DNA of 64,000 bases, taken from assembly GCA_024734555.1 (NCBI GenBank), contig JANPWX010000054.1:10007601-10071600 (forward strand), written 5' to 3'. The stretch comes from Trochalopteron elliotii (lineage: Eukaryota > Chordata > Aves > Passeriformes > Leiothrichidae). The notes beneath the pieces were generated by a model. The model was not told the DNA's origin. It did not search any database and saw only the letters and a program-made list of their open reading frames with translations. Positions 2,454 through 59,012 of the stretch are shown piece by piece. Each line of letters opens with the position of its first letter. Within the stretch, counting starts at the first letter, position 1. A program made the position numbers and the translations under genes.

Positions 2454-2558
2454 ATGGGAGCTGAAGAAGAAATGCTCATCACTCTGTCTGGAGGTGCCCC
2501 CTGGGGCTTCCGCCTGCAAGGGGGTTCAGAGCAGAAAAGACCCCTTCAAGTGTCAAAG
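2454..2558 (+). CDS. SYNPO2L: SYNPO2L coding exon 1: start of PDZ domain
   Basis: Synaptopodin 2-like (CHAP) is a cytoskeletal Z-disc protein of heart and skeletal muscle that binds alpha-actinin. This exon encodes residues 1-35 and starts MGAEEEMLITLSGGAPWGF, nearly the same as the mammalian long form. The segment SGGAPWGFRLQGG (residues 12-24) contains the carboxylate-binding loop of the N-terminal PDZ domain. The start is chosen because the ATG has A at -3 and G at +4, an in-frame TAA lies five codons upstream, and the family begins here. The exon ends in phase 0 at AAG with donor gtagga. The next coding exon is 13.2 kb away. Shorter family isoforms that lack the PDZ domain are known, so this exon should be specific to the long form. 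Confidence 0.95.
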
Positions 2559-15738: not shown

Positions 15739-15890
15739 ATTCGAAAGAGAAGCAAAGCATGCCGTGGAGGTCTGTGGGAAAATGATGTTCTAGTATCTAT
15801 CAATGGGAAGTCATGTGCTGGCCTGTCCCATGCTAATGCCATGCAGATCATCGATTCCTCCAATGGCATGCTCAACATCCGTGTGAAAAG
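15739..15890 (+). CDS. SYNPO2L: SYNPO2L coding exon 2: rest of PDZ domain
   Basis: The exon encodes residues 36-85 and two bases of codon 86, preceded by a strong polypyrimidine acceptor (gctttttcag). It supplies the PDZ beta strands and second helix: IRKRSKACRGGLWENDVLVS leads into INGKSCAGLSHANAMQIID, where 'VLVSINGKSC' is the usual PDZ turn and 'SHANAMQIID' the ligand-flanking helix. The sequence is closer to the SYNPO2L paralogue than to SYNPO2, particularly the 'LSHANAM' helix, which settles the gene name. The donor is AAAAG|gtaacc (phase 2), and the split codon is completed as Arg by exon 3. Confidence 0.95.
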
Positions 15891-18368: not shown

Positions 18369-19042
18369 GATAGTTGGTGGGGACCAGACTGGCCCCCGGC
18401 TCCAGCGCTCCCCTTCTCCAGGGCAGCGAGTGCTCTCTTCACCATCCCCGCTCAGCCCCTCGGCACAGTTACTCAGCTCTGAACCAGCAGGAGGAGCCCC
18501 AGCCGCCGCACGGCCCGCACAGCCCTCACAGCCGTGGAGGTCACAGAGGCACCTGGAGAGCCTCACGTCCCCACCGGACAGCGAGGCCTACTATGGTGAG
18601 ACAGACAGCGATGCTGACAATGTGGCGCAGGAGAAGCACCGCCGGGCTCGCAAGAAGAGCCCACGCTCCCCGCCTGACAGCACCAGCAGCAGGGCGGATG
18701 CCCCTCAGGACGAGGTGTCCCTGTCGGAACAGAGTGGCTACGAGAGCACGCCCGAGGCTGCTGTGCAGGGGGGAGCAGAGCTGGCCAGCTCCAGCGGGGT
18801 GGCCAAGAGGGAGATTGTCTGTCTGCCTGGCAGTCGCACAGACACTCCCTTCTCAGACAGCGAGGGACAGCTGCGGCCACCGTCAGCAGAGAGACGGGAG
18901 CCTTCTCCCGAGGCAATGCTCCTGCCCCATGCCACCAAGGCTATCCGAGCAGAACGCCATCTCATCCCCATGGTGGGGCCGGTGGAACACCCCATTGATG
19001 AAGACCTAACCACCACGTACACAGAGAAAGCCAAGCAGGCCA
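18369..19042 (+). CDS. SYNPO2L: SYNPO2L coding exon 3: Ser/Pro-rich linker
   Basis: The exon encodes residues 86-310 plus one base of codon 311. The protein is low-complexity and rich in Ser, Pro and acidic residues, so probably disordered. Conserved islands are SPPDSEAYYGETDSDADN, DEVSLSEQSGYESTPEA, SRTDTPFSDSEG and, near the end, MLLPHATKAIRAERHLIPMV followed by EHPIDEDLTTTYTEKAKQA. These match the mammalian protein and fix the frame against a competing open frame in another register (18374-19009). Met269 in the last island is a plausible start for a PDZ-less isoform, but I see no separate promoter. The acceptor is ccccacag and the donor GCCA|gtaagt (phase 1). Confidence 0.93.
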
Positions 19043-29020: not shown

Positions 29021-29474
29021 CTTTTCTTTTCCCTTTTTCTTTTCCCTTTTTCTTTTCCTCTTTTCTTTTCTTTTCTTTTCTTTTCTTTTCTTTTCTTTTC
29101 TTTTCTTTTCTTTTCTTTTCTTTTCTTTTCTTTTCCTTTATTTTCCTTTATTTTCTTTCTTTTTTTCTCTTTTCTTTTATTTTCTTTTCTTTTTTCTTTT
29201 TTCTTTTTTCTTTTTTCTTTTTTCTTTTTTCTTTTCTTTCTCTCTTCTCTTCTCTTCTCTTCTCTTCTCTTCTCTTCTCTTCTCTTCTCTTCTCTTCTCT
29301 TCTCTTCTCTTCTCTTCTCTTCTCTTCTCTTCTCTTCTCTTCTCTTCTCTTCTCTTCTCTTCTCTTCTCTTCTCTTCTCTTCTCTTCTCTTCTCTTCTCT
29401 TCTCTTCTCTTCTCTTCTCTTCTCTTCTCTTCTTTCCTTTCCTTTCCTTTCCTTTCCTTTCCTTTCCTCTCCTT
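29021..29474 (+). repeat. Polypyrimidine pentanucleotide satellite, (TTTTC)n/(CTCTT)n/(TTTCC)n
   Basis: A stepwise satellite is seen: TTTTC units first, then a short block of TTTTTTC units (about 29200-29236), then about 190 bases of CTCTT units (about 29242-29430), and finally TTTCC units. The + strand has only three A interruptions (29140, 29150, 29179), and 29180-29474 is a pure 295-base pyrimidine run. Such homopurine-homopyrimidine tracts can form triplex DNA. It sits 2 kb before exon 4 of SYNPO2L. Two long open frames across it encode only Phe/Leu/Ser runs and are not genes. Confidence 0.97.
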
Positions 29475-30838
29475 ATTTTAGTCTACTCTCCTTACCCTAT
29501 TCTTTTGCCTTTTCTGATTTCATTCGTGCTCTTTACCTTCTACAAGTCGTCTTAGGAAGAGTTCTCTTCCTGTTTTTTCTTAAACTGTTGTGAAAGATTG
29601 TAGCTTGAATAGCATGACCATTTTTCTCTTGGGAGGACTGGTGTAATTAGTCATGTGCTTTAGCTTTTGATGAGGAGAGAGGTAGGAAGAAGAAAAGAAG
29701 GAGATGAGAAGCAGGTTCCAGAGGGCCCTATTTGCCAGCTCCTTCAGAGCACAGGACAGTTCAGAGCAACTTCCTAGGGAAGTTGTACATGGATCCTAAT
29801 GCTGAGCCAGGACTACAAGCTGGTGGAGTTAAAGCCAAGACCATCCTCTGTTACATTTTCTCTGACAGTATTTGTTAGCCCAGACTTTAGGGCTGGCACT
29901 TCTATGGTAGTCTGCTGTCAGAACGGGCTGTGCAGACATCCCTTTGAATGCTATTGCTCCCTATCTGTTAGCTCCTGATGCTAGAAATCCTCCTGTGAGT
30001 CACTCAGGCCAGAGTTTGCATATTCTGCACTTGACTAAGATTCTGTGGTGCTGCTCTTTCTCCTTGTAAATTTAGAAAGAAAATACCATCAGGTGAGGTG
30101 TAGTAACTTGTAGCAAGGTTGTTTGTAGCAACTTCTCTTATTTTCTCTATTGTCAACACCCCCTAGAGACACATCAAAGCAGATCTGTAAATGAAGTGGG
30201 CAGACCTTCAGGGACTGTAGTTTGTTTCCATCACAGAAAGCAGGTCTTTGAGGGCAAGTCTGTGACTGCCCTGAAGAACATTAAATCTACACAAAAACCT
30301 GGACACTACTTCAGTCTTGGTTTAGCAAGGTGGAGTCATTCTGTAAGGAAAGTTTTGCAAAGAACCTTCATTTTGCAAATGCAAGTAAAAATAATGAGCC
30401 ATTTCAGCATTGCTTTTTCCTGTTTCTAGTTCTGGGTGCAAAGGAGAGGGATGGACTGTGCATCCACATGAAATGATCTCAAACCACAGAAGTCCCCTTG
30501 CTGAAATCCTAAAGCAGCAGCATGTGCTATGGAATGGCTGCAAACTTTGAGAGCTTCCTGGAAGGATGACTGCTTTGCAAATCAACACTTTATTTTCAGC
30601 ATGGGGTGGAAGAGGGAAGCTCTTTCTGATGTGGTTATACTGATGCAGTACAGAATGATGACACTTGCCACAATTCTGTGGCCTAGAAGGGTTTTAGGAG
30701 ACTGCAGCCCCTAGGAAAACTAGTAAACTTCTTAAATAAGCTCTCTGTCCCTCACTGCAGGTGACTTTGCCACATTAACAGGTTCACATTGAATGAATGA
30801 ATGCTTTGTGATAAAATGATCACAAGGGAGATCCTGAG

Positions 30839-31206
30839 NNNNNNNNNNNNNNNNNNNNNNNNNNNNNNNNNNNNNNNNNNNNNNNNNNNNNNNNNNNNNN
30901 NNNNNNNNNNNNNNNNNNNNNNNNNNNNNNNNNNNNNNNNNNNNNNNNNNNNNNNNNNNNNNNNNNNNNNNNNNNNNNNNNNNNNNNNNNNNNNNNNNNN
31001 NNNNNNNNNNNNNNNNNNNNNNNNNNNNNNNNNNNNNNNNNNNNNNNNNNNNNNNNNNNNNNNNNNNNNNNNNNNNNNNNNNNNNNNNNNNNNNNNNNNN
31101 NNNNNNNNNNNNNNNNNNNNNNNNNNNNNNNNNNNNNNNNNNNNNNNNNNNNNNNNNNNNNNNNNNNNNNNNNNNNNNNNNNNNNNNNNNNNNNNNNNNN
31201 NNNNNN
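30839..31206. other. Assembly gap (368 N)
   Basis: A run of 368 unknown bases in SYNPO2L intron 3, 319 bases upstream of exon 4. The true size is unknown. It may reflect difficult sequence, like the satellite 1.4 kb upstream. ORFs spanning it are meaningless. Confidence 0.99.
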
Positions 31207-31525: not shown

Positions 31526-33862
31526 AGCTCCACCGCCACGAAAGCATCCAGGAGAAGAATGTGAAAGAGGCCAAAACCAAGTGCAGAACCATTGCTTCCC
31601 TGCTGACAGATGCCCCCAACCCCCACTCCAAGGGGGTGCTGATGTTTAAGAAGCGCAGGCAGAGGGCTAAGAAGTATACACTGGTAAGCTTTGGCAGTGT
31701 TGATGAAGACCGCTCCTACGAGGAGGAAGACGGAGTTTTTCCAACTAGTGAGTCTGAATTTGATGAGGAAGGTTTCTCTGATGCCCGAAGCCTAACTAAT
31801 CACTCAGACTGGGACAACACTTACCTAGACATTGAAAAGTCCAAATCTGACTCTGAACAGAAGGAAGAGAAGCAAAAAGGTTTGAGTGAGGCCTCAGGTA
31901 AAGGAGCACGATTATTTGAGCAGCAGAGGGAACGGGCTGGGAAGTACACAGTTGAGAAAACTCCAGTGCAGAAGAGCCCAGAGCTTGCCTCAGCTGCCCA
32001 GCCAAAGCAGGGCACAGTGAACGGAGACATGCCTGTGCCAGAGAAGGCAGACAGTATGCCCCTCAGCATCCACCTGGAAGGTGTGCAAGTGCCCAGCAAG
32101 CAGCCAGCCACCATCCCCACTCAGCTCCTGACTGCCCCCAGCCCCACTTTCTTCCCACCTCCCCCAAGCACCCCCGACCCCTTCTCTGCAAGTTCAACAA
32201 GCATGTTCAACAGGTCTGCACGGCCCTTTACTCCTGGCTTTTCTGGCCAACGTCCAGCAACATCCTCTGTCATCTTTAGGCCATCTGCACCCAAAAAACC
32301 CACTGAAAGTCCAGGTGGGCAAAGCACAGTGGTTCCCCCTTTCTCACCTCTGGTTCCAGGAACACCTGCCAATGCACCAGTGCCAACACAGCGTGGTCCG
32401 GTCAGCTCCTCCACGTCTCTGTATATTCCTGCACCAGGAAGACCAACATCACCACTGGGGTCACAGCCAAAAGGGGGAGGAAGTGCTCCAGAGATCAAAC
32501 CTTCTGCCAACACTGCCCGGACGTCCACCACCTCTATCTTTCTGTCATCTCCCTCAAAGCCAGGAGGGGATATGGCCTCCGCAGGATCCCAGCCACGAGT
32601 CCCTGGAACAGCCTCTTCTTCATTGTATATTAGTCCAGCACCATCACAGCACATGAGAAGCAGTTCCCCTGTGCCCAAGCAGCCTTCTCCTGCCATCACT
32701 CCAACAACACCACGACCTCCTTCAGATCCCTTAACCTCCAGGGAGCAGAGGATTGCTGTGCCAGCTCCCCGCACAGGCATCCTGCAGGAGGCTCGCCGAC
32801 GAGGCAACAAGAAACCCATGTTCAGTAAGATTGAGGAGAAGAAGAAGAATTCACCCAACCCTGAGCTCCTGTCTCTGGTGCAGAACCTGGATGAGAAGCC
32901 AAAAGGTGACCACCCGGGGGCAGGCTTTGAGTCTGGGCCTGAGGAGGACTTCCTCAGCCTGGGTGCTGAGGCCTGCAACTTCATGCAGTCCTCAGGCCGC
33001 AAGTTCAAGACCCCACCTCCAGTGGCCCCCAAGCCTCAGCAAGATGCTGGATTGGTAAACGGGGCCCAGGACATGCCTCAGCTTAAAGGCAAGGGGGCAG
33101 AGCTCTTTGCCAAACGCCAGAGCCGCATGGACAAATTTGTGGTGGAAACAACACCGAAGCCAGAGTACAAGCCCAGGACCCCCTCTCCATCCCCTTCTCT
33201 ACCCTCATGCTGGAAATATTCACCCAACATCCGGGCTCCCCCTCCAATAGCTTACAACCCAATGCATTCCCCTTTCTACCCCCTGGCAGCCACCAAATCT
33301 CAGGCTAGCAAAGCAGAGAGCAAAGTGAAAAAGGCACCTGGCCAGAAATCAGGGATCAAGGTCATTGATTTAATGCGCCACCAGCCCTATCAATTAAAGT
33401 CAGCCATGTTCTGTTTTGATGATCCCCCAAGCCCCAACACTCAGAATACTCCTGGTCAGCCAACCCCACAGGCTAGCACATCCTTCATGACCGCCAAGCA
33501 GGTCCCTGTGAAAATAGCCAAGACCCAGGAGATTCGTCGCTTCTCCACTCCGGCTCCCATGCCAACTTCCAGCAGCCTGGCGCCCACTGTGCTTGTGCCC
33601 CGCTCAGCCACCACGCTGGATGAGCCATTGTGGAGAACAGAAATGGCCTCTTCTGCCCCTGCTACACCAGCACCCTTCCAGCTGGAGCTCAGCCCCCCCC
33701 CCTAAGCCATATCAGAGCTCCCCAGAGCCTGGACAGGTGGGACAGGGACCTCCTCCAAACTCAGCCTCTGCCTCTCGGTTTCAGGTGGCCAGGCCCAAGT
33801 TCTCTGCAGCAAGAACAGGCATGCAGGCCAATGTGTGGAGGCCAAGTTTTGGCCATCACTGA
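31526..33862 (+). CDS. SYNPO2L: SYNPO2L coding exon 4 (main body), with +1 frameshift near the 3' end
   Basis: The last exon starts in codon 311 (Lys) and encodes about 70% of the protein. Conserved parts: CRTIASLLTDAPNPHSKG then VLMFKKRRQRAKKYTLVSFG (330-367); a second KG..LF motif (436-454); FNRSARPFTPG (538-548); KTPPPVAPKP (805-814, SH3-type proline motif); a third KG..LF motif (833-851); WKYSPNIRAPPPIAYNP (873-889); and RRFSTP (981-986, a possible 14-3-3/basophilic kinase site). Between these it is Pro/Ser/Thr-rich and disordered. The continuous frame stops at TAA 33703-33705, directly after ten C (33693-33702). The conserved family C-terminus, FQVARPKFSAARTGMQANVW with a few more residues, lies in the next frame and ends at TGA 33860-33862. 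One base fewer in the C run would join them, giving 1088 residues instead of 1036 (human about 977). The acceptor is ctctttcag. The product acts at the Z-disc and on actin bundles. Confidence 0.95.
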
Positions 33863-36412
33863 GGCAGGCGCCCCTCCCATCCTGTCTGTGGCCCCGCAGA
33901 GATAGTGTTTGTTTTGTCTGTCATGTCAGCTCAGTACATTGGGATGAGTGACACAAAATGAAGAAAAAAACCCTCAAAAAATTACTGCCCTTCTGCACCA
34001 CCCCCTTCCCCAGCCTCCCCTTGGTCTCAGATGGGATACTTCATGGAAAGGCTCACTGGCTGTGGCTACAGCAGGAGGAAGAATGTGGAGAGAGGGCACG
34101 TGTGTGGTACACAAAGACTGGGAACTTGTTCACAGCAGCAAAACCCCCCTCCAGAGGGGGTGAATGGCAGAGGTTGTCTCACATGGAGACATACGTGAAG
34201 CAGTAGTTTTCCTTTCCCAAGGGCTTTGGAGTCACCCCTGCATAGAAGGAAACTAGGAGGCAAGAGCTTTCCAGGAAGAAAGGGTAAGAGGTGAGATTAC
34301 AAAACAGAAGCCCCAGCTTTCCCATTAGACTGTTGTCCTCTGATCCTCCCAGTCTGTACACTTGTGTGTGCACACACATGCACACAGCAACACTCAGCAG
34401 GGAGTGAAAGAACAAGTGGGGCCTCACCTGGGACACTTCTCCCAGACTTCCCCCCTCTGTGGGGGCATGGGAAAGAAGGCAAGAGAGCAGAGTGAGCAGT
34501 GGTGTTTGCCTGTGCACATGTGGCCCAAGAGTGGCCATGTGTACCTGCTCCTCCAGTCACCAGGGCTGGGGGTAAAAGAGAGAGTCATTTTAGCTGGTAC
34601 TAAATACCACTATCAGGTCTGGAAATAGTTTGCCAAAGAGGGGCTTTGAGAGGACTCGATGGGGCTATCACCCACTGTGGGAACTGCAGAAGGAAGTATC
34701 CATTTCTGTGGATACACCAAGTCAAAGCTAAGTCAGGCAGTGTCTGGTTGGCACAAAGAAAGGCCCTGCAGCATCAGTCCCACTGAACAGGATATGGGTA
34801 CTGTAAGTAGAAAGGTGGATTGCATGGGAGAAGGTACAGTTGGCTTTAAAATGAGGCAGGACTGAATAAGCATTTGTACATGATCTTTTTGTTTCGTTTA
34901 GGACAGAAGTGGGGCAAGATTAGAAATGGGTCACAGCATAAAACTTGCTGAAAGCTTTGTGATGAGGGGAAAAGAGAGGGCCTTTACAGACATTCTCAGC
35001 ATGGAAGTGGAGGTCAGGAAAACAGAAAGTCACAAGTAAAACTTCATACAAAATGACTTAGGTATTATTGTGGGGCCTATTTGATAAAACCAGAAGTGCT
35101 CTGAGAATCCCAGAGGATCTGCACTCACACACATATACAGAGTTCAGTTTGCTGATGATGCTGAGGAAACAGTACTGGTTATTCCTTGAATGTCCCAGGC
35201 TAGCCTCCAACCTAATTCCTACACTACAGGCTTACATGAAGAAAGCACTGCCTTCCCAAGGAAGAATTCAGTGTATTAGTAGGGACTGTGCATGTGTGTG
35301 TGCATGTCATGTGTACTCTGGTTTACACACCCCCTGCTTGTGGTCCTCCTTTGCCAGCAGCCACTTTTCCAGTGTGATCCCACAAGTACACCAAGAAAGC
35401 ATTGCTCTGAAATGCTGGCTCCAAACACAGCGAATGCCTCAGCTACAGGGAGGGGATTTGCCACCTCTTTCTGGGTCAGGGTGTCTCACCCTTTGCTAAA
35501 CTCTTGGGAACATGTACATGAGGCAGAACGAGGGTCTCATAGCCCTCTCTCCTTGAGACAAGTCTCCCTCTCACTAGGCTTGCTCCTCTCCTTCAAGCAG
35601 TAGCCATTCTCTGACTGGACTGAGCACCAACTTTGGATATACAAAAGTTTACGTTCTGGGGGAAAAAAAAAGGAATGCAAGCAGGTTTGAAGCAGTCTGT
35701 ATGCAGTGCAGCTAATGTTATTTCATACTAAATCTAAGTCAACCTTCCTCTGCACAGCAGCAACTTATGATGTGTAGCTTTTTTTATGACAGCTGGGGCT
35801 CTACTTTTTCTTGGAGGCTTGAAACTCTTTCTCTGTGAGCGCCTGGAGATTTTTCACATGTGCTCTCCTATGAAGAAAAAGAAGGCTGGAAAACCTAGCT
35901 AACATGTGTGATCCTGGACAGGCTTGGGAGGGAAAGAATGAGAGAAAAGGAGAAGTAATACACAATTCTGCCTTTGAATCCTTCACATTCTGGCTGGACG
36001 TTTTTGCAGGCCTGTGTTTGCAGTGCACATTCCTGGTGGCCCTGAAACATATAATGAGTGTGCTGGGGAGAGAGGAGGACAAAACTTTCCCCTCACTTGG
36101 CACACTATCAACCATGGGAGAGGATTGTAAGAAAAGCCATGGGAACACCTTGAGCTAAAGGACAAAAGTGAGGCTGAGTCAGAAGAGATGCTGCATCTGG
36201 TTATATGACATGGGAGCAGCTGACCTGAATTGATGAGGAGATTGTGTCCCTGAAAAGCCCCAGAGGGGATGTCTTAGGAGAAATCATCACCACAGAGTTA
36301 ATTGAGATCACCAGAATCCACTTAGCTCCAGTGAAGGGGAGCAGCCATGCTACAAAACCTATCTCAGATGATTGCTTTCTCACTCATCCTGTACTGCATT
36401 GCATTGCTTCTT

Positions 36413-36480
36413 AAAAAAAACAAAACAAAACAAAACAAAAAAAAAAAAAAACAAAAAAAAAAAAAACCAAAAAACCACAA
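36413..36480 (+). repeat. A-rich / (CAAAA)n simple repeat
   Basis: CAAAA units are followed by long A runs broken by single C residues. It could be the remnant of a retroposed poly(A) tail, but no source element is recognisable just upstream. Confidence 0.9.
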
Positions 36481-36871
36481 CAACCTGTGTGCAAACTGAA
36501 CCTCTGTGACTCTTCCCAAACATGGAGGGAGGAATCTTCTGTTTTATCTAGGAAAGCTGTATGAAGGAACTCAAGAAGTAGCAGTGCTCCAAAAGCTTTG
36601 TCTCTCATCTCCTTGTGGAGTATTGTCTGTCCTGGCTAGATTGAAGCCATTAGCCTTAGACAGACAAGCTAGCCCAGGCTGAAAGCACTACTGAACTCAG
36701 GTGTAGAGAGGGGTTGTGTGGACCAGAGGAAGGGTGCTCAACATAATTCTGCAGTCAAGAAATAACCTCAGAAAGTCTGAATCTTACTCCAGTATCCCTT
36801 TCCCTCAGGCCCCTAAAGTTAAGTGCTCTCAGGGTCTGAAAGTCTCAGGAAATTAATTTTGCCACTGGAAA

Positions 36872-36877
36872 AATAAA
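36872..36877 (+). terminator. SYNPO2L: Candidate SYNPO2L polyadenylation signal
   Basis: The first canonical AATAAA after the SYNPO2L stop. No direct evidence links it to the transcript. A further AATAAA lies at 38332-38337, and either could be used or be a chance match. Confidence 0.25.
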
Positions 36878-36900
36878 TAAGTCTGGCCTTAGCATGTCAG

Positions 36901-39900
36901 GGAGGTTGCATGGGTTTAGTATTTTGGTAATCCCACTCCAGACTTCTGGGAGACAATGATTTCTGTTGAGGAGTGATTGCCAAACACCATTCAGTCTTAG
37001 ATAACATGATCCAAGGGAGTGGAGATATTCCAAGGGAATAACTGCATTTGCCCCATCATTTCTGATAATGTAATGGGCAGGAAATGAAAAAAGTTAGGTT
37101 TGATTGGAGAACAAATAATAAGTATAACAGCAAGGAAAATAACCAGGAGGCTGGGAATCCTGCATTTTACTTACATCCTAGCTTCAAAGCTATGTTTAGA
37201 AGCAAAACTGAAGTAGCTTAATGGACTTTAGCCCCTCACAAACTTTCCTGGATCCTGTGCTGACATGCTGATCTGCAGAAGCAGAGGCTGTTGCAGGTGA
37301 GGCCTACAGTGCTCGTGGTGTATCCCAAACAAGGCCTGTAGCTGCAAGTAGCATGAGATGAGAAATAATACTGAGATGCATCTGTTAAGCTGCAAGGAAG
37401 AAACCTGAACTACTGCTGGCTTTAGGCAGCTCTGCTAATGTCTGCTCACAAAAATACTGTGGCTGGCCTGTTGGAAAGGTGACAGGTGAAATTACAAGGA
37501 ATACTTTTGAAACATGTAAGCTTGTCTTGAGCCTCTCCAAATGTCTAACTCCTCAGCTGTTGAACAAGCACAGACATAAACCATTGTTTGAAAAGTTTTA
37601 GCTCCCACCTGCTATGTTATAAGCTGCAGTGGTAGGCCAAACCCCAGTGTTCCCTTGTTAAATATTTGAAGATGTCTTTATTGGCTCTGATTTAAAACTG
37701 CCTATCATCCCTCCTCTCTAGCATGCTGCAGGTTTCACATTGCAGCTATGGCAATTCAGGGGTTTTATCTTTGCTTCAGAAGTTACAGTCCCTTCCCTCT
37801 CAATACATGGGAACACTTACCAGAGATAACCTCAAGATCCTGCAGCATCTGGGAGGAAGCATCTCAGAAGAGACTGGTGTGATGAGGAGTCACTGATACC
37901 AGACGTGAGCACAGTGTGAGGCAAGATTGTAAAGAATATGCTCCCTTTCTGCTGTAATATCCAGCACCCCATACTACACCCTTTTGCCTAGAAGAGATCC
38001 ATCAGTGCTCTGAAAATGGGAGCCCAGCAGCAGTGCTCTGTCTGGTGAAAGATGTGACCCCAGATGAACAGAGTTGGCATCTTTGTTTATGGAAATACCT
38101 TTTTTCCTTTTCTGTTTTGTCTTTTTTTTTTCCAATTTACAATCACTTTCTATTTGTTTGTGCAGAAAAATAAACTTGTGATATGCACTTTACATGTGTC
38201 ATTTTGTCACTCTTTGCTTGGCACTCAGGAGGAATTGCTATGTGTACAGCACATGCATTTAGCACTACCTACTACAAACTTCTAAGGACAAGAGAATATA
38301 AGGAGTTCAGAAAAGGATGGGATGTCTCAGCAATAAAAACACCTAGGTTGGACTTAAAGCCTCTATACATTAAAAAAAACCCATGCAAGCAAAAACTTAA
38401 GTGAGATCCAAAACGTTGGTACTACAGACTATAAAACGCCCACTCACTGACAAGCTGAAGATATTTGTGGTCCAGCCTGAGCTGGCCTGCCCCATCACTG
38501 CCCCTTAGCCTGTTGTAACCTAAACCCTACCCTCTGCTTGTAAATCCAGTATCAGTGGAAGCTGGTCAGCTCTGATAAATCCAAATGTAAACTCTCACTA
38601 AACAATTCAACTTAATATTAACCAAGATATCAGAAAAACAAGTCAGTCAGAAAATCAAATGCATCTCATTGTATTCTCAGGCTCCAAATCTAATCCTAAC
38701 TCTAAACTTAATCCAATTAATGTTAAAGTCTACTCGGTTTCTGGGTCCTGAGAGGTTCATTGTGTTCCATTTAGGACAAATGTTAGCAGGTTGCCTTTCC
38801 TAGACATATCTCACTCACAGACAGCAATTCCTAAGCACTGCAAAAGACACTGGGATCAGCTGTAGGATTAGACTTCAGGCTCTGGACATTTGTCCAGGTA
38901 TAATTTTGTGGATGTTTGTCAGATTAATTGCAAGGAGGGCTTTCTTTTGCAGTGGTCTGGAGGTAGGTCTTAGGACTATCCAACATATTTCTGATTGACT
39001 TGCCATCAGAAAAGGCAGAAAGGGGCAGCAATGTTTGCTGATGCCAAACCTGAGCTTCTGTCCAACCAGAAGCACAGCTCCCAAAAAAGTAAGTATACAG
39101 ATGCACAGGCTGCAGATTAGGACTGCATCTTGTTTTGCTTAATAAATCTGACATAGTAGGATTATGAGCTGCTCCAGATGGTTTGACACATTGCAGGACA
39201 GTTGCTGTATCTAGGGCTCTTAATTAAATTCCCTGTTAACCTCTACAACCTTCTCAAGTGAGAGTCATTTCCTCTCAGAGCAGATCATGTCAGAAGGAGC
39301 CAGACAGACTTTGAAAAGTGGAACAGGAGCCTGCCAAGCCAAAGGATTACTAAACAGCTATGCAGCAGGCTAGGGATTAACCTGGTCTTCAGCGCCCACC
39401 TTAGAGAGAAAACCAGAAAGTAGTTAGGTGTCTAGTGGAGACATCTACTCCCAAACAATCATACCCGATGGAAGAGGAATGTGCAGCAAAGAGCCCAGCA
39501 GGGAAGTATGTGGCATACAGGAAAGACAAGGCTATTCCCCAACAGTACAGACCTATAGCTTCAACGGCCACTAGATGCTGCCACTGTTCTTCTCTGAGTT
39601 ACCTGGGGTTTTGGCATTCGCCTGATGCCCTAAGTCTAGAGGGTTTAAAATCTTAGGAAGTCCCTTCTTCCTAATCTATCCTCTTTTGACATTCACATAT
39701 GGTGCTGCTCAGTCCCACATACCAGAGGAGAAGGTCAGGCTCATACCAGAGAGTGTTGGCAGCAGGGGGCTTGCTGCAGCTCGGAGGGGGATTCCTGGGT
39801 CATGCAGACAAACAGGCTGCCCAGCAAATCACACACCATGGGAACGGCAGCTGTTTCCACACGCACTCCATCTCTACGGGCAATTCCTACATATTTCTGT

Positions 39901-42900
39901 CCCAGTCCTAGTCTTACTGTGCATTAAGCCCACCTAGTGGCATGACAGAGCCTGGCATTTACTGCTTCTCCTGTTTTGGTGCTATGAAGTACTGACAAGT
40001 CTCCCTGGTGTCTGTGTAAATTGGAACAGGTTAAGAACATGTGAAATATTTTACAATTTAAAAAATTATATTTATTTCATAATCATCACAATAACAATAA
40101 CCAGGAAAAAAGCACCAAATCAAGAGTTTTGCAACTTTTTTTCAGAACAGATTGAATCATGTTGGAATCTGCTGCTCATGAACACTTTCAACACAGATCA
40201 GTCCTGGGCATAAGGGAAAAAGGACAGCAAGGACAAGGTTTAATTCTCCATCTTTGAAAAATTAAAGTAGTGAAGACTGATGCTGTTTTCCTGACTTCTA
40301 CATGATCAAAATGTGCTCTGGAGACAGCTCTGCTGCTGATACTTCTCTGAAGTACTGCTTGTGTCCATCCAGCAGCGTAATAAAGCAGTTTCATATGCTA
40401 CTCTTGAAATGAGTTTGTAGGCGTTGACAGCTTGAAGTTAGACCATTTGAAATTAGGTGTACGAGAATGCAGTGTGAAAATAAATTAATTTTGAAGATAC
40501 ATGTCAGGGAAAGCAAAGCTTTGTTTAGGCTGTTCCTCAGGCCACTTAAACAAAGGGCATTTTTGGAAAGAGGGAGGTGGTCACAGTGAGACACAGACAG
40601 TTTCTTGTATGATCATAATCTCTCTGAAGTGGTGAAAAGTCCTACAGGCAGCACATGTGCTACCGCACTGGCATTAATGGAAATTCCATGTACTTGAGCA
40701 AAGATTGAATTTAGCCACCAAACCTCACCACAGTCCAGGTAAACCCTTCCACCCTAAACAAACCAAAACCACCTCAAGCACAGCTTGTAGTGATTTAAAA
40801 CCCTTAGCATTGACTACTATGAGTGGGTAAGATAACAGATACCACCTGAGTTCATTGCATTATTTATGGCAGGGATAGAAGATTGGAACAATATTCCCAG
40901 TGCAAAAAAGTCACTGACCTGCTGAACCTGGCACCATGGCAGGACACAAGTCAAATCTCTGCTAGACCCACAATTGACATGTATACACTTTTGAACTAGA
41001 CATTCCTATGTCTCAGGAGAAACCATGTATAGAAAGGAGAAAGGAGCAATATTTAGTTCTCAGTGTGGTAACTGAAAATAAAGACATATAATTTTATTTG
41101 AAGGCAGAGTAGGAGGTAAGAATCTCAGTTTAAGGTGTGTCTTGGTGCTTAAGCGTCAGACACAAGAGTGCATTATACAAATCACCCTATAAATGCTGGT
41201 GCCATACTAATAGGTTCAAGGCTCAGGCTCTGTTCATTCCTTGCAGATGGACTCTTAGGTCCCATGTCTCACCTGTTACATGTATACTCCTCACATGAGA
41301 CCTTGACTAGGCAAACAAACGCTTTGTTCCCGTCAGACCACGGTTCCCATCACTCCTTATAGCTGGACTTCAGCATCCTTGGCCTTGATCTCAACCCTGC
41401 TTGCCTCCGGCCCTTTGGGCTGGGGCTCCACAGCAGACTCTTGTCTCCTGGAGTTAGCTCACCCTGAACTGTCAGTACCTTGTTCCTGGTCCTAATTGCA
41501 GGCTGTGCCTGCTCATAGTCTGATTGAGATCCTCACACACCATGCTAGACATGCCTTCTCTTCATCTTGCTATTGCTTTTCCCTAGTCTCTCTCGAGTTT
41601 TATAAGAGGGACCTCATCTGTTTCCTGTTCACTTCCAATTACCATAGGGCACTCTGCTCCCTTCCAGCATGCTCAGCTTCTCTCTCTGTTGCAGCTGCCT
41701 GGGGTGGGAGGAAGCAGAGGTGCGCCAGGTCATGTGACAGGGAAGAGCAACCACATGCTTCCCTGCTTCATCATCTTTTGGAGCTGCACCATGCCTCAAA
41801 ATCCATCAGGTTCCCACATGATATCCAGCTGGCACAAACTGTTCCCCTAAGGTGTAATTTGTGCTCAGGAAGGCACAGGAGATGACTGGAGAAATAAAAC
41901 AACACCTATAAAGTGGTCTGAAAACAGCTGCTTGGAAGCAAGAAGGGAGGAGGTAAAGTTTAGCATCAGCCTAGTTACTGCAAACAGGTATCATATAGTG
42001 GTACCTGCATTTCTCAACTTCTCACCTGATGATAGAAATCACATTAATTTCTCAGATGATTATCAAAATGGAGCTAGAAACTTCTTAAATTTAGATGTAA
42101 CTCTACCTCATGCCTTTGGGAGAGGCAAAGGGCTCTGATTTTAAGCAATAAAGCAGCACACTGTGTTTGTTCTCACTCTGCTCCCTCCATATGCCACCAC
42201 CTTGTGGCAGGCAGTGCCTCCCTTGATGAATGATGAATGAGAGTTTACAGCACAGGGAATTTGAATAGGAGAGCAGCATCTCAAGGAGCACAACTAGATG
42301 TCACAGCAGACACTGGCCACTCTGGCCAAATGTCAAGCATGGTGCTAAACCAATCCAGAAGAATTAATGTGTGAGAAAAGTACTCCTCCTTGTACAATGT
42401 GCAGTGAGCAGGGCTTGGCAACACCAAGAGACCCACTCCTCTGTGGCACCTGCCCTTGTGCAGGGTGGGTGTGATGTGTGGACAGATGGTCAGCTGTGAC
42501 AGTAGCATTTGACACCCTCCAGCTTTGTGCAGATGTAAATGCCTTCACCAGGCATGAAGCTCTGTGATGCTGCCCAGAGCAGACAGTGGGTGTTTACAGT
42601 TTAATTGTGCTTATTTTACACTGGAACTGCTCCAGGGATTTGCTCCTGAATCACCAGCACGGGAGTGTGAGGGCAGGATCTGGGCTGGACATCACTCTGG
42701 TGTATCATCCCAGCTCAGAGAAGGATGCAGTGCTCCTGTTGGTAGTGGAAAGCATGTCATGCTCTTACAGTAGATACAAATGAGGGAGAATCAGAGCTGT
42801 GAAATAGGCACAATGCAAGGTATACACTGTGGTTATATGCATGCAAGCAAGAGGAAAATGGGAAACTTTCAGCCAGAAGAATGCCATATGTGCCCTAACT

Positions 42901-43960
42901 CCAAGCAGGATATAAAAACTGTTTATTGCCTATAGGAATGTTACAGCAGTCTTCTACAGGACCTTCCTAACGGTACTGGGGATTAACACTTAGTGCTTTC
43001 AACCCTGTTATCACACTGCAAAGCTTTATATGCATTTGGTGCAGGAAAAACACAACAGCAAAGTCCAGGGAAAATGGAACGTGGCTATCTCCTGATGTTC
43101 CTTTATGTCAACTTTGCTTGCAATTCTCTGTGCAGATGATTCTACTACAACCACAACTGTGTTTTGTTTTTTTTCCTCCTCACTAAACTCTAGAATTATT
43201 CAGTGGACAACTTGATTTTGATCCAATAGGGATTCAATCTTCCAATATTAAACAGAAAGGCAATGTTTTCTGCCTCATTCAGAAGCTGAAAGGTATGTGC
43301 ATCTTTAAGTATTCCAGTAAAATGAGGTATGTTTCCTTCATCCTAAAACCAGAACCCGATTTGGTAGGCAGGAAAAAGAGGGAGAGTCACCTCATAATGA
43401 ACAGAAGTTAAGGGGAGTTATTTGTATAAAATAACAATAACAAAGCTGCACCAAATTCAGGATATCAACCCTATTTCTGTCATTAATCAGGAAATTAATT
43501 TCCTTGCTTTTTGATTCAGTTGGGTTTCCCATACATATTAAATAGCTACTTCCCAGAATTCTGTAAATAGCTTTCTACACTTTGTTTTTTCCTACTACTT
43601 CTTGTTTCATGCATACCGTTATTCTGCTTCTTTATTTTCTGAAGCATTTTAGGAAATACATATGACAGCCTAGAGGACACTGGGGTGAATGATTAAGAAG
43701 GTGCAGAAGGAGGGTGTAAAACAGAGCAAGACCCAAGATATTTTTTGAGGCATTACTGACAAACAGGATATTGAGAAGGTTTTATGAATTGCATCAAAAA
43801 GCAATAGGAGGAGGAAGAGAACTGCAGGTTTAACTGAACAAAGGAGGAAGAAGTGAGCTGCCTATGGAGTGCCTGGTTTTCCAGGACATTAAGACAGTGA
43901 CTGCAGGAGACCTCCTGCAGGAGACTGGAGGTGCAACCTTTTCTTTTCCCCTCTCCTCAG
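36901..43960. other. Intergenic region between SYNPO2L and MYOZ1
   Basis: About 7 kb of unique-looking AT-rich sequence. I recognise no exon, RNA gene or transposon. Chance AATAAA motifs and a TATAAAA at about 42911 are present; the TATAAAA could mark a promoter, but no donor-bearing exon follows as clearly as the one at 44253. ORFs such as 41496-41885 have no family resemblance. Confidence 0.6.
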
Positions 43961-44005
43961 GGATGGCAGCAGTGCTATCTGAGAGTCTGCCCTCTGGGCC
44001 TTTGG

Positions 44006-44015
44006 CTATTAATAA
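44006..44015 (+). promoter_or_regulatory. MYOZ1: MEF2-type site in the candidate MYOZ1 promoter
   Basis: CTATTAATAA matches the MEF2 consensus YTAWWWWTAR exactly and is AT-rich enough to double as a weak TATA element. It lies 238 bases before a perfect-consensus donor that could end the non-coding first exon of MYOZ1. MEF2 control of muscle Z-disc genes is established; its use here is inferred. Confidence 0.4.
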
Positions 44016-44029
44016 CTGCAGGATGCCTG

Positions 44030-44253
44030 TGTGAGCAGCCTTCAGGAGTCAAATTCACAGCACTTTGCATCAGCACTTTGTGCTGGGCAGAGCCTCCCTG
44101 CACCCAGGCACCCTGGGAGAGCGGGGCTGCTGGACAAGCCTCCCCAGGCAGCACCCAGAGACAGCACCCAGAGACAGGCTGGGAGGAAGCAGCCACTGCT
44201 GAGCTCTGGGGCAGGTGTGTGAGCTGGTCTGAGCCTGGCACTGCAAGCCTGAG
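44030..44253 (+). other. MYOZ1: Putative non-coding first exon (5' UTR) of MYOZ1
   Basis: A locally G+C-rich stretch ends in CCTGAG|GTGAGT, a consensus splice donor at 44254, 2.05 kb upstream of the acceptor of the exon with the MYOZ1 start codon. Mammalian MYOZ1 also has a non-coding first exon. The 5' limit is a guess placed just after the MEF2-type site. A 13-bp unit, AGCACCCAGAGAC, is directly repeated near 44150-44175. An open frame of 108 codons crosses it but resembles nothing and lacks conserved character. Confidence 0.45.
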
Positions 44254-46304
44254 GTGAGTTGACTGGGCAGCAAAATAGTGCAGGTGCTGGAGAAGTAAAG
44301 ACTGGTTTGGCTTGCAGCACCAATGACTGCTGCAAAGATCGAAGCACAAAAACACAGAGAAATTGAACCAGGGGACAGAGCTGAGGGAGAAAAGCCCTGG
44401 TTTTATGTAGAGATAGTAAGGATGGGGTCTGAGGCTCCAGCAGCTTCTGGGAGGGCTGAGAGAGCAGTAGTACCATGTAACTCTGGTTACATTGCTGTCC
44501 CTTTCCTTATGCTAGACCAATTGCATGCAGTGGGTTTTTCAATCTTCAGTCCTGCTGGATTGGTAAAGGACAGCAGAATGGGATGGACTTGTCTTCACTA
44601 CTGCTTGGGAATTAGTGTGATGAGCACAGCTCCCCACCATGGCTCTTTCTGCCTTGCCCCAGGGAATCCGTGTTTGTGGCATACAGATGATTTTTCTCTG
44701 TTTTGCCAGTTTTAGGAGCCATCAGATGGGCCATAACCTCTCACCCCTGCTGTCTCCTGGCAGCATTGCCCCTTTCCTGTCAAGCAGGGCCTGCTGCTTT
44801 TATACGGCCAAGCAGATGTCTGGCTGCTTGCAGAGAATGTGCAGCGCGTGCGTCATGGCTGCACCTGCTCACACTTGCCTTGGGAATACCCCAGCATGGG
44901 CTCGTTTATGATGTGAGCTACACAGGCAGCATCTCAGGAAAAGGAAAAGCCTTCAAATCTGAAAGAAAAACTAATCCAAGGGAGTATCTGCCAATGTGAT
45001 TGACACTGTTTTGTTGTGGCTGGGCTTCTTTTAGCAGTTATCACCACTCCATCACATAAAAATCATGTTGCAAAAGAAGTAATGGTGGAATGATACTTCA
45101 GAATACACAGGAGATAAAAATGTCTTGATCAGAAGGGCACAAACTCCTAGTTACAGCTGTTTGCTTGCTAGTTTTAAAATATAACTCGTAGTTCAAGTAA
45201 AATGCAAAGAATCACAAGGACAGAGGTGGTTAGTTATTGCTGCTGCTGAAGCCAATGGGTCTTTGCCCATTTTTCTTTGTGTTCTATTGCAATATATTAG
45301 GTGGGGATCTGTCCCCTATATGCTGTTGTTTGGGCATGGACAGTGGTGAAGTGAAGGCAAGACATTTATTCTACTTGCATTGTGTGCAATAACCCCTAAG
45401 AAGGACTGTCAGAAGCTGCCTGAAATGGAATTGCTGAGATTACTCCTGATTTTCCCTGGCTTTGCAGTTCAGATCTCTCATCCTATCTGGGGACAGAGAT
45501 GGGGAACACTGTACCAGAAGAAATCTCCTTCTCCTCTTTCCCCCTTCAAAATGGCATGGGATAAGATCAACACATAAGATACAGATGCAAGTGACTTCAA
45601 ACAAATTGGGTGAACAACTTTAACAGGTTTTCCTGTGCCTTCCTCCTTCAGCTTTTCTGTAATAAAACAGTAGCAGTCATAAAAGACAGAACTACTTGGA
45701 ATTTTGTTTTGTTTCTTTTTTTTTCCCTTCCAAACTTGCAGTCTGGTGACTTTCTGAATACCTATTCCAATTCTAAAAGGACTATCTAAATATCCAAATC
45801 AAAATCACACATGATGCAAAGTGCTCCAAATAACTCATGGACAGACCTGAAATCTTTATCCAAAAGTAAATATTACCATCTAATGATAACTGCATGTTGT
45901 TATAACATTGCATCATAGAGCAAATTTTCAAAGTGACATCCTGTTGCTGCAGCACAAGATGATAACAGAGTATCCCTACAGCACTTGTGGATTCTGGGAG
46001 ACTGCCTCGTTGCAATTAAATTGCCTCTTTTGGATGACAGTGCTATATGGCACGCTGGCAATGCTTCTGCTGGGATCTGCTACCATATTTTGTCAGAATG
46101 CTGGGTCTCCAGAGAACCCCAGAATGGCCTGCTGATGATACCCTGTATGGCATGATACCTTTGTTAGCTCCATCATGGGAAAGGGATAGAAAAGAACCTG
46201 TGTGTGAAATGAAGGCTGTGCATCTTTTACCTGTAGATGGCAACTAAAAGAGAGGAAAGAAATACATTTCCAGTGTTTCATTCTCCATTTCCTTGTGTGT
46301 TTAG
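44254..46304 (+). other. MYOZ1: Putative MYOZ1 intron 1
   Basis: If the upstream exon is right, this 2-kb stretch is the intron in the 5' UTR, ending in ccttgtgtgtttag. I see no repeat or exon in it. ORFs at 44323-44999 are not recognisable proteins. Confidence 0.45.
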
Positions 46305-46330
46305 AGCAAAGCAGAGAACTCTTTGTGGGA

Positions 46331-46406
46331 ATGCCCCTTGCAGGGACTCCTGCTCCTGTTAAAAGGAAAAAGTCCACTAAACTCATTGGGAAGCTGACAC
46401 ATGAAG
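46331..46406 (+). CDS. MYOZ1: MYOZ1 coding exon with start codon
   Basis: Myozenin-1 (calsarcin-2, FATZ-1) is a Z-disc scaffold, mainly in fast skeletal muscle, that links alpha-actinin, filamin C, telethonin and ZASP and tethers calcineurin. This exon begins at 46305 after tgtttag; the ATG at 46331 opens MPLAGTPAPVKRKKSTKLIG, matching the mammalian N-terminus with its basic KRKK cluster. It encodes 25 residues and one base of codon 26, with donor GAAG|gtaaga (phase 1). The whole gene encodes 294 residues in five coding exons (human 299), all joining in frame with intact splice sites. Fast-muscle expression is assumed from the family, not from this sequence. Confidence 0.93.
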
Positions 46407-47314
46407 GTAAGATATGCAAAACTGCACATGTAAGAATTGTTTAAATTTCAACCTGAATTTCAGCCTTTAAAATTTCACACCTTGTCTGACTGAACTCCCA
46501 AAACAAGACATGCAGTGAACATATCACGGGGCAGAGCCACAAATTTTACTGAAGCCCAGCCTTCAACCACGTCACATTTTCTATTTTACAGCTGAAAAGC
46601 ATTGCACACACTCAAGTCGAAAGCTGACCTAGATTACACTCTGTAAACTTGTATTCTCCTGCAGCATTAATTTGGATGCACACCAGTGTAAATTGACAGA
46701 AAACATGATCTTTTACAGGTGTCAATATTACAGTGCCTAGATACATTCTACGTTGTTCTCTCTCTTATAACCTTTGTCTCATACTTATTTTCTCCTCTGT
46801 GTGAGAGAGTTTCTTTGATTCCAGCACTCATTACCTGAAAAAGACAAAGTCTCTTAGAGAAGTTAATAGAGCAGGAAGAATATAACCTGGAACATTTTTC
46901 TTTCTACAGAACATGTGTATATTGGATAGGGTAACTTTTAAATAACTGTGATGTCCTTATCTTTTCTTTACTTTTGACAGCATGAGGAAAGTTTTAGAGG
47001 TTTGGAAAAGTAGTCATTTTAGGCAGTACCAAGAAATATTGCTGCACTGACTGAGATGCTGCAGATGTGGGAGACACTCATCTAACTCCACCCCTATACA
47101 ACTCCTCTCTGCAGATTTGCCTTGCTTGCAATCCAGAGTAAATCCCAAACATCTGTATCCAAAGTGTCATCAATGTAAAACTTGGTGCATAGATAGTTTC
47201 CTAAAATCTTAATTTAGAAGATAATTTGGGTGTTTTGAAATGATGCCAGGAAGCAATAGACAAAAACATGGACCAGAGTACTTCCTAAAGTGTCCCACTG
47301 TATATGTTTTGTAG
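46407..47314 (+). other. MYOZ1: MYOZ1 intron 2
   Basis: A 908-base intron with donor gtaaga and acceptor tatgttttgtag. No repeat, exon or RNA gene is seen in it. Confidence 0.9.
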
Positions 47315-47496
47315 CCATGCCACAAGAGGTGTCCAAGCTGAACCTGGGGAAGAAGATCAGCATCCCCAGAGATGTGATGCTAGAAGAACTTTCTCTCCTC
47401 ACTAACAAAGGATCCAAAATGTTCAAATTACGTCAACTGAGAGTGGAGAAGTTCATTTATGAGAATAACCCTGATGCCTTCACTGACAATTCTGTG
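47315..47496 (+). CDS. MYOZ1: MYOZ1 coding exon: conserved N-terminal calsarcin block
   Basis: The exon encodes residues 26-86. LNLGKKISIPRDVMLEELSL (34-53) and KGSKMFKLRQLRVEKFIYE (57-75) are nearly identical to mammalian MYOZ1 and form the most conserved N-terminal part of the calsarcin family. The second block matches, without gaps, a motif found three times in SYNPO2L upstream (see findings). An internal ATG at 47317 opens a 61-codon frame, but it is only the exon continuing the upstream frame. The exon ends in phase 0 at TCTGTG|gtaagt. The next exon lies 7.4 kb away. Confidence 0.96.
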
Positions 47497-54912: not shown

Positions 54913-55147
54913 GATCACTTTCAGAAGTTCATCCCACCGGGAGGGCAGTATGGGGAGGATGCTCACGGCTATGCCCACGGGCGGATGGTAGGAGGAATGG
55001 CAGCTGGGCAGCACGGCTCCGGGGGGCAGCAGCATCCCGGTGTCCCTCCTAGGCCCGGAAGCAGGGGAGGCGCTAGAGACGGTGAAGGGGAGCATGCAGG
55101 GAAATCATCTGGAGGTGCTGGAGAAGGAGGTGATGGTACTGACAAAG
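54913..55147 (+). CDS. MYOZ1: MYOZ1 coding exon: glycine-rich central region
   Basis: The exon encodes residues 87-164 plus one base. It opens with DHFQKFIPPGGQYGEDAHGY, which matches the conserved DHFQKFLP of mammals. A Gly/His/Gln-rich low-complexity stretch ending in GGAGEGGDGTDKG follows, as in the calsarcin family, where this part is disordered and varies in sequence. The local G+C content is much higher than in the flanking introns. The acceptor is ctgccctag and the donor AAAG|gtaagt (phase 1). A minus-strand ORF over it is a shadow. Confidence 0.94.
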
Positions 55148-57853: not shown

Positions 57854-58013
57854 ATGGAAAGTCAGGAGGCAAAAAGGTTACTATATTTAAAACTTATATT
57901 TCCCCTTGGGAACGAGCGATGGGGATCAGCCCTGAGGACAAAAGTCAGTTCTCCACGGACTTGCTGTCATACAGCCCCAAACCTGATTTCCCCCATTACA
58001 AGTCTTTTAACCG
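57854..58013 (+). CDS. MYOZ1: MYOZ1 coding exon: conserved C-terminal calsarcin region, part 1
   Basis: The exon encodes residues 165-217 and two bases of codon 218. KVTIFKTYISPWERAMGISP (172-191) is the hallmark of the C-terminal calsarcin region, the part that binds alpha-actinin and other Z-disc partners in the family. HYKSFNR at the end begins the first of two FNRT motifs. The acceptor is ctctgtttacag and the donor AACCG|gtaagt (phase 2). All hallmark residues of the mammalian protein in this stretch are retained. Confidence 0.96.
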
Positions 58014-58780: not shown

Positions 58781-59012
58781 GACTGCCATGCCTTATGGGG
58801 GTTATGAGAAAGCAGCCAAACGGATGACCTTCAAAGTGCCTCAGTTTGATATCTGCCCTTTGCTCCCAGAATCTCTCATGATATATAATCAAAATTTCAG
58901 CAAAAGACCCTCCTTCAACAGAACCCCAATACCTTGGATGCCTTCAGGAGACTTCTCAGAGTACCAGACTACAGCCAGTGTGCCAGTATGTGGTGAAACA
59001 GAGGAGCTGTAA
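58781..59012 (+). CDS. MYOZ1: MYOZ1 last coding exon with C-terminal PDZ ligand
   Basis: The exon encodes residues 218-294 and the stop TAA (59010-59012). TAMPYGGYEKAAKRMTF (219-235) and FSKRPSFNRTPIPWMPSG (257-274) are conserved family blocks. The last five residues, ETEEL, form the acidic C-terminal PDZ ligand that myozenins, myotilin and palladin share and that binds enigma-family PDZ domains such as ZASP. The exon follows acceptor cctatgccag and is complete; the protein of 294 residues is close to the mammalian length of 299. Confidence 0.97.

Follow-up and report, generated by a model that had tools for sequence, protein, structure and literature searches.

Two neighbouring genes share a short basic helix

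We analysed a 64,000-nucleotide stretch of the genome of the songbird Trochalopteron elliotii (the window; GenBank assembly GCA_024734555.1, contig JANPWX010000054.1, positions 10,007,601 to 10,071,600 of the forward strand), which carries the genes SYNPO2L and MYOZ1 in tandem, head to tail on the same (plus) strand. An initial annotation, made from the sequence alone, had rightly named the two as neighbours and had noticed a 19-residue motif that occurs three times in SYNPO2L and once in MYOZ1. All four 19-mers were found letter for letter on the plus strand. Copy 1 (KGVLMFKKRRQRAKKYTLV, 31630..31686), copy 2 (KGARLFEQQRERAGKYTVE, 31900..31956) and copy 3 (KGAELFAKRQSRMDKFVVE, 33091..33147) lie in the large last coding exon of SYNPO2L (31526..33862), and the MYOZ1 copy (KGSKMFKLRQLRVEKFIYE, 47407..47463) lies in coding exon 2 of that gene (47315..47496). 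The span originally given, 31627..47465, encloses real matches, with its start off by 3 bases and its end by 2; the 9 out of 19 positions counted as identical between copy 3 and MYOZ1 were confirmed. The net charge is +8 for copy 1, +4 for the MYOZ1 copy and +2 each for copies 2 and 3.

AlphaFold2 predicted two helices in the product of MYOZ1 coding exon 2, at residues 18-29 and 34-50, the latter being the motif (block predicted local distance difference test [pLDDT] score of 90). The product of the large SYNPO2L exon was predicted to be mostly disordered (mean pLDDT 45.8), with helices at residues 16-36, 44-59 (copy 1) and 134-151 (copy 2), and further helices at 454-461 and 531-543 (copy 3; block pLDDT 70 and 52). 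In these models, the SYNPO2L pair 16-36 and 44-59 looks like the two-helix unit of MYOZ1. In this exon, prediction confidence is highest for the helix at residues 16-36, upstream of copy 1 (31546-31608, containing KEAKTKCRTIASLLT), where the block pLDDT reaches 87; this segment also holds many invariant residues. Searching solved structures by sequence with both motif-bearing exon translations returned no credible relative.

The similarity exceeds shuffled controls

Compared without gaps under BLOSUM62, the MYOZ1 19-mer scored 35 with copy 1, 34 with copy 2 and 52 with copy 3. With the MYOZ1 19-mer held fixed, none of 1000 shuffled SYNPO2L sequences reached any of these values (null maximum 28). 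When both whole proteins were scanned, none of 1000 shuffles reached 52; because the null maximum was 50 and the mean 32.7, copies 1 and 2 alone are not outstanding in that scan.

As relatives we used the best 120 of 661 matches from the search with MYOZ1 and the best 120 of 754 from that with SYNPO2L; another search listed all 5 matches (41 candidates). The synaptopodin-family sample comprised 123 proteins ranging from lampreys to mammals and birds, mostly SYNPO2L and rich in birds, with few SYNPO2-type proteins from fish and three lamprey entries from two species. Counts over such related proteins are not independent. A hidden Markov model (HMM) built from MYOZ1 only and run with a very permissive threshold found 254 domain matches in the 123 proteins, all 254 in register with the copies: copy 1 was matched in 120 proteins, copy 2 in 15 and copy 3 in 119. 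For 79 out of 123 proteins, the best match exceeded the best of 9840 shuffled sequences. Reciprocally, the best matches of HMMs of copies 1, 2 and 3 were in register in 104 out of 105, 119 out of 120 and 119 out of 120 of the MYOZ1 proteins matched, and the copy 3 model outscored the best shuffle in 105 out of 120.

Profile comparison against shuffled controls bore out the similarity that had been claimed. Compared profile to profile, MYOZ1 scored 22.9, 21.4 and 26.1 with copies 1, 2 and 3 (shuffle maxima 18.7, 16.1 and 15.3), and for each copy 0 out of 300 column shuffles reached the score; adding blocks of human MYOZ2 and MYOZ3 gave 34.5, 32.5 and 42.6. The SYNPO2L copies are themselves mutual repeats (34.2 for copies 1 and 2, 18.6 for 1 and 3, and 43.7 for 2 and 3, with 0 out of 200 shuffles for each pair), and the MYOZ1 helix resembles a further synaptopodin repeat, its profile similarity exceeding column shuffles for all copies.

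A second motif is collinear with the helix

A second shared motif, FNR[ST]AxP[FY], was first spotted by eye and then tested. SYNPO2L carries it as FNRSARPF (32206..32229, plus strand), between copies 2 and 3. Its MYOZ1 form, FNRTAMPY, is split by an intron, with the first part at the end of coding exon 4 (58006..58013) and the second at the start of coding exon 5 (58781..58796). The pattern NR.A.P[FYW] was present in 120 out of 120 MYOZ1 proteins, 121 out of 123 synaptopodin-family proteins and 4 out of 6150 shuffled proteins.

When the MYOZ1 profile was compared over its whole length with that of the synaptopodin set, with no sites specified, five alignments were returned. The two best were with copy 1 (35.1), where the alignment takes in an upstream SLLTN/SLLTD flank, and copy 3 (33.2); the third paired YKSFNRTAMPYGGYE with TSMFNRSARPFTPGFS and is the FNR motif (24.5), followed by copy 2 (21.9) and a weak alignment (16.9). 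Column-shuffled profiles (200) scored 25.2 at most, and their third alignment never exceeded 13.6; the reversed profile gave 15.3. Direct comparison of the FNR blocks scored 22.1, which 0 out of 200 shuffles reached, and the order copy 1, copy 2, FNR, copy 3 was kept in 121 out of 121 proteins. A possible second MYOZ1 site, SFNRTPIPW, did not beat shuffles when compared with the synaptopodin FNR block (8 out of 200 reached it) and was dropped.

Copies 1 and 3 are conserved from lamprey to mammal and bird

The phenylalanine at motif position 6 and the arginine at position 12 are present in all 123 synaptopodin-family proteins in both copy 1 and copy 3, and a basic residue followed by an aromatic one stands at positions 15-16 in 119 out of 123 for copy 1 and 118 out of 123 for copy 3. 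In copy 2, the phenylalanine is kept in 120 out of 123 and the arginine in 95 out of 123. The basic-aromatic pair of copy 2 occurs in only 47 out of 123, which by their listed names are the window protein, birds, two crocodilians and the tuatara. The pattern KG..[LM]F.....R..K[YF] proposed in the initial annotation therefore holds broadly, and its F, R and K-aromatic positions are kept in orthologues for copies 1 and 3; for copy 2 the K-aromatic part fails, and we rejected the full pattern as conserved there. Copy 2 has a conserved first half and a lineage-specific tail that, to judge from these alignments, is free to vary.

All three SYNPO2L copies were found in lamprey, where the initial annotation had proposed to look for them. 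Lamprey copy 1 reads RGVLMFKKRRRRARHYTLV and copy 3 KGAQLFAKRQSRMEKYIVD; copy 2 is represented by its first half, RGAEMFKERQR. All three thus predate the split between lampreys and jawed vertebrates. No invertebrate protein appeared by name among the matches listed (one entry, P0096, is nameless). Two lineage changes were noticed in passing: mammalian copy 2 has lost its K-aromatic end, and a changed copy 3, RGGELFAKRQSRADRYVVE, is common to 26 proteins.

Gene structure and linkage

Upstream of its last coding exon, SYNPO2L has coding exon 1 with the start of the PDZ domain (2454..2558, end taken from the sequence), coding exon 2, also PDZ (15739..15890, from tblastn, ends approximate), and coding exon 3 (18369..19042), whose donor gives a phase-1 intron. 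MYOZ1 is encoded by five exons, namely 46331..46406, whose donor likewise gives a phase-1 intron, the motif-bearing exon 2, and 54913..55147, 57854..58013 and 58781..59012, the last running through the stop codon. All these exons lie on the plus strand. The predicted MYOZ1 is 97% identical to that of Chamaea fasciata over 268 residues. Both MYOZ1 intron 1 (GAAG/GTAAG ... GTAG/CC) and SYNPO2L intron 3 (GCCA/GTAAGT ... CAG/AG) are in phase 1, and they precede the motif by 30 and 34 codons, respectively. Aligned on SLLT[ND], they lie 25 (MYOZ1) and 23 (SYNPO2L) codons ahead of the serine, by hand count.

The open frame of the large SYNPO2L exon, as it stands, ends at 33705, and a run of ten C (33693-33705) lies right ahead of the stop codon. 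Because the SYNPO2L of a relative (P0231) continues in another frame, with a 98% match to 33710-33859, this stop looks like a length error or a variant. The sole gap of the window, 368 N at 30839-31206, lies in the intron about 320 bases ahead of the same exon; as a speculation, the start of a short SYNPO2L isoform could be close to it. A long pyrimidine-rich simple repeat (TTTCT-like, about 28950-29550) in this same intron reads as phenylalanine-serine-leucine open frames. At both window ends, judging open frames by eye with no search made, we recognised no further genes.

The gene pair is linked elsewhere as well. In 12 species, collected by hand among the matches listed, MYOZ1 and SYNPO2L were on contigs of equal size, one of them of 67,773 bases. 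A rodent gene model (P0166, Scotinomys teguina, 776 residues) joins the first half of SYNPO2L to a complete MYOZ1 and is probably a fusion of neighbouring genes at the level of the model; MAFFT, unprompted, aligned its MYOZ1 motif with SYNPO2L copy 3. In human, USP54, SEC24C and NDST2 presumably lie near MYOZ1 and SYNPO2L. The initial annotation had also held that the human paralogues form adjacent pairs. Published lists place MYOZ2 with SYNPO2 and MYOZ3 with SYNPO in shared chromosomal intervals: mouse chromosome 3 has the order Usp53, Myoz2, Sec24d, two further genes, Synpo2, Prss12, Ndst3 (PMC4204525), and a table in a study of the 5q- deletion includes MYOZ3, SYNPO and NDST1 (PMC4671954). 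The pairing is thus borne out at the level of shared intervals. This linkage of paralogues fits duplication of one linked pair.

Relation to the Calsarcin domain and other known elements

The initial annotation had left open whether the resemblance had been described. For one synaptopodin site, the counterpart of copy 3, it has (PMC11753949; Pfam PF05556). According to PMC11753949 (2024), residues 464-508 of mouse synaptopodin form a Pfam calsarcin domain whose helix resembles a helix of myozenin; the core of the shared helix is therefore already in print for copy 3. The same paper states that the calsarcin helix is kept in SYNPO2 and SYNPO2L and runs on into a hairpin, and that Drosophila CG1674 has a calsarcin domain with 47% similarity to human. 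The published domain corresponds to copy 3 and the hairpin after it; we assign the hairpin part, as probable, to the strongly conserved block WKYSPNIRAPPP on the 3' side of copy 3 (33211..33246, plus strand). It differs from our set in being a single site, since copies 1 and 2, the FNR motif and gene structure are not treated in the parts of that paper we had. In the literature searched, as far as it was available, we did not find copies 1 and 2 treated as calsarcin sites. What goes beyond the published core is the recognition of copies 1 and 2 as divergent copies of the helix that are already present in lamprey, the invariant phenylalanine and arginine of copies 1 and 3 together with the variable end of copy 2, the FNR motif (at which no literature search was aimed) and the place of the phase-1 intron.

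PF05556 (Calsarcin, covering myozenin/calsarcin/FATZ; 255 profile positions, gathering score 24 bits) counts MYOZ1 as a member. It matched the SYNPO2L exon at 42.7 bits, above the cutoff, and 37 out of 38 synaptopodin-family proteins tested at E values up to 0.01; the score of P0127, 21.3 bits, fell below the cutoff, and P0125 gave no match at E values up to 1. When segments of 90-100 residues were scored singly, those with copies 1, 2 and 3 reached 15.6, 19.1 and 19.3 bits, each below 24, which suggests that the whole-protein score draws on more than one copy. Among 24736 families, PF05556 alone was listed for each copy segment. All SYNPO2L copies match around positions 50-100 of the profile, and SYNPO2L differs from myozenins in matching just that part. 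Among the matches listed, the precomputed Pfam annotation lacks PF05556 in many mammalian SYNPO2L entries and has it in most bird and reptile entries. A C-terminal PDZ ligand of the ETEEL type is a feature of the myozenin family. MYOZ1 ends in GETEEL, and SYNPO2L relatives, together with the matching frame of the window, end in WRPSFGHH. We rejected the idea that SYNPO2L is itself a myozenin, given that the PF05556 match covers at best positions 52-100 of 255 and the ETEEL-type end is absent.

The myozenin-1 chains of PDB entries 7A8T, 7A8U and 7ANK, which we take to be alpha-actinin complexes, contain FNRTAMPY, the counterpart of SYNPO2L FNRSARPF, but begin downstream of the KG..[LM]F helix. 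Complex structures of myozenin-1 with alpha-actinin are mentioned in PMC11070111. The basic tail of copy 1 resembles the nuclear localisation signal KKRRRRARK of SYNPO2 (myopodin), the same stretch standing in mid-copy as KKRRRRARH in lamprey and KKRRQRAKK in the window; that signal has been described as an importin site and, in the parts we had, not as a myozenin-related repeat (PMC10405370). Because it contains this stretch, copy 1 probably also acts as a nuclear localisation signal.

Proposed origin and function of the shared helix

The carriers of the helix are mostly disordered, actin-associated scaffolds, with three divergent copies in SYNPO2-type proteins and one in myozenins. Beside the directly established observations (similarity, internal repeats, conservation, predicted helices, second motif and intron phase), we favour common descent over convergence, probably through partial tandem duplication of a synaptopodin gene. 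We give a probability of roughly 0.55 to the reading that a short basic alpha-helix came to be shared by tandem duplication of the 3' part of such a gene and acts as a lattice contact. Before the vertebrate genome duplications, a tandem duplication would have copied a 3' portion of a synaptopodin-family gene, including the FNR motif and a copy of the helix, and the duplicate would have become the myozenin gene; SYNPO2L and MYOZ1 would still be side by side because myozenin arose in this way. The helix may provide a weak contact with the F-actin/alpha-actinin lattice, several copies per molecule would favour bundling, and myozenin would pair one helix copy with its alpha-actinin-binding part. 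Published work shows that SYNPO2L bundles F-actin and binds alpha-actinin in both isoforms (PMC11352367) and that deleting the calsarcin domain abolishes F-actin-positive inclusions of synaptopodin (PMC11753949); these results concern whole proteins and fragments longer than the 19-mer.

Several points weigh against this reading. The intron comparison concerns one locus, and intron phase alone would agree by chance about one time in three. The reciprocal HMMs of copies 1 and 2 outscored the best shuffle in 0 and 1 out of 120 MYOZ1 proteins, the FNR HMM bits by themselves did not beat shuffles, and HHalign's own probabilities for the five whole-profile alignments are low (19.9, 13.3, 1.5, 0.7 and 0.2%). 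Among 223 null alignments, 2 reached the FNR score of 24.5 and 9 the copy 2 score of 21.9. MYOZ1 is nearest to copy 3 by residues and to copy 1 by flank and intron. Nor does strong amphipathicity explain the helix, its hydrophobic moment being no greater than that of shuffles. MYOZ1 is not known to bind F-actin. A fusion of the calsarcin domain to EGFP is cytosolic, and synaptopodin pieces flanking residues 384-473 still reach stress fibres (PMC11753949), so the helix is neither sufficient nor the sole actin site. Alpha-actinin bundles did not grow larger with the short SYNPO2L isoform, and in atomic force microscopy SYNPO2La was seen at the globular ends of alpha-actinin and not along its rod (PMC11352367); this location argues against FNR as the same rod ligand in both families.

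Chance resemblance of basic low-complexity stretches is very improbable. Taken singly, copies 1 and 2 score modestly (15.6 and 19.1 bits, below the Pfam cutoff of 24), and against chance stand the column shuffles (0 out of 300 for each copy), the 254 out of 254 matches in register, conservation from lamprey on and the listing of PF05556 as the only family per copy segment among 24736; for copy 3, these controls refute it. Convergence is the more serious rival. Two disordered Z-disc scaffolds would independently have gained the same short motifs to bind a partner common to both, be it alpha-actinin, filamin C, actin or a PDLIM protein, and the gene linkage would have another cause. The motifs are indeed short and lie within disordered protein, just one more, weak alignment (16.9) was seen beyond them and their short flank, and PDLIM proteins are a shared partner family, though myozenin binds them without this domain (PMC11753949). 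Nevertheless, the two motifs come in the same order, with a similar SLLT[ND] flank, the same intron phase and a tandem position, and MYOZ1 resembles the copies to the same order as they resemble one another. The suggestion in the initial annotation that myozenins arose beside a synaptopodin gene gains support from the collinear second motif and the phase-1 intron, and its convergent alternative stays a serious rival that we consider less likely.

Less likely still is descent with a mainly regulatory or membrane-side role for the helix, as an importin site in copy 1 and an endoplasmic reticulum site in copy 3, later reused in myozenins. Copy 1 has the basic stretch that PMC10405370 reports to be the nuclear localisation signal of SYNPO2, if we equate the two correctly, and the calsarcin domain is required for inclusions associated with the endoplasmic reticulum (PMC11753949). 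Against this, MYOZ1 and copies 2 and 3 have few excess basic residues (+4, +2 and +2, versus +8 in copy 1), and a C-terminal fragment that is not associated with the endoplasmic reticulum likewise loses its inclusions when the domain is deleted (PMC11753949).

Descent by tandem duplication also has a bolder form, which we put forward tentatively. Myozenins would be cut-down tandem offspring of a synaptopodin gene, retaining two modules and sharing one cross-linking code with synaptopodins, the multi-copy parent of a single-copy descendant. The phase-1 intron, the SLLT flank and the KG..[LM]F helix downstream of them would make up module one, and FNR[ST]A.P[FY] module two; in both families, FNR would bind alpha-actinin and the helix would add a second contact with the lattice. 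MYOZ1 binds the alpha-actinin rod. We slightly lowered our confidence in this code because SYNPO2La sits at the globular ends of alpha-actinin rather than on its rod (PMC11352367).

Implications for the Z-disc protein families

The MYOZ2 variant S48P presumably lies five residues upstream of the motif, as counted by hand on the human sequence. It is named as a cardiomyopathy variant in PMC11070111. An atrial-fibrillation locus has both MYOZ1 and SYNPO2L among its candidate genes (PMC11477451). If the proposed duplication is true, two Z-disc protein families would be one by origin, and a conserved vertebrate gene pair would receive a simple history. SYNPO2L FNRSARPF would be predicted to be an alpha-actinin ligand, the number of helix copies would be the valence behind bundling, and one of these helices would double as a nuclear signal.

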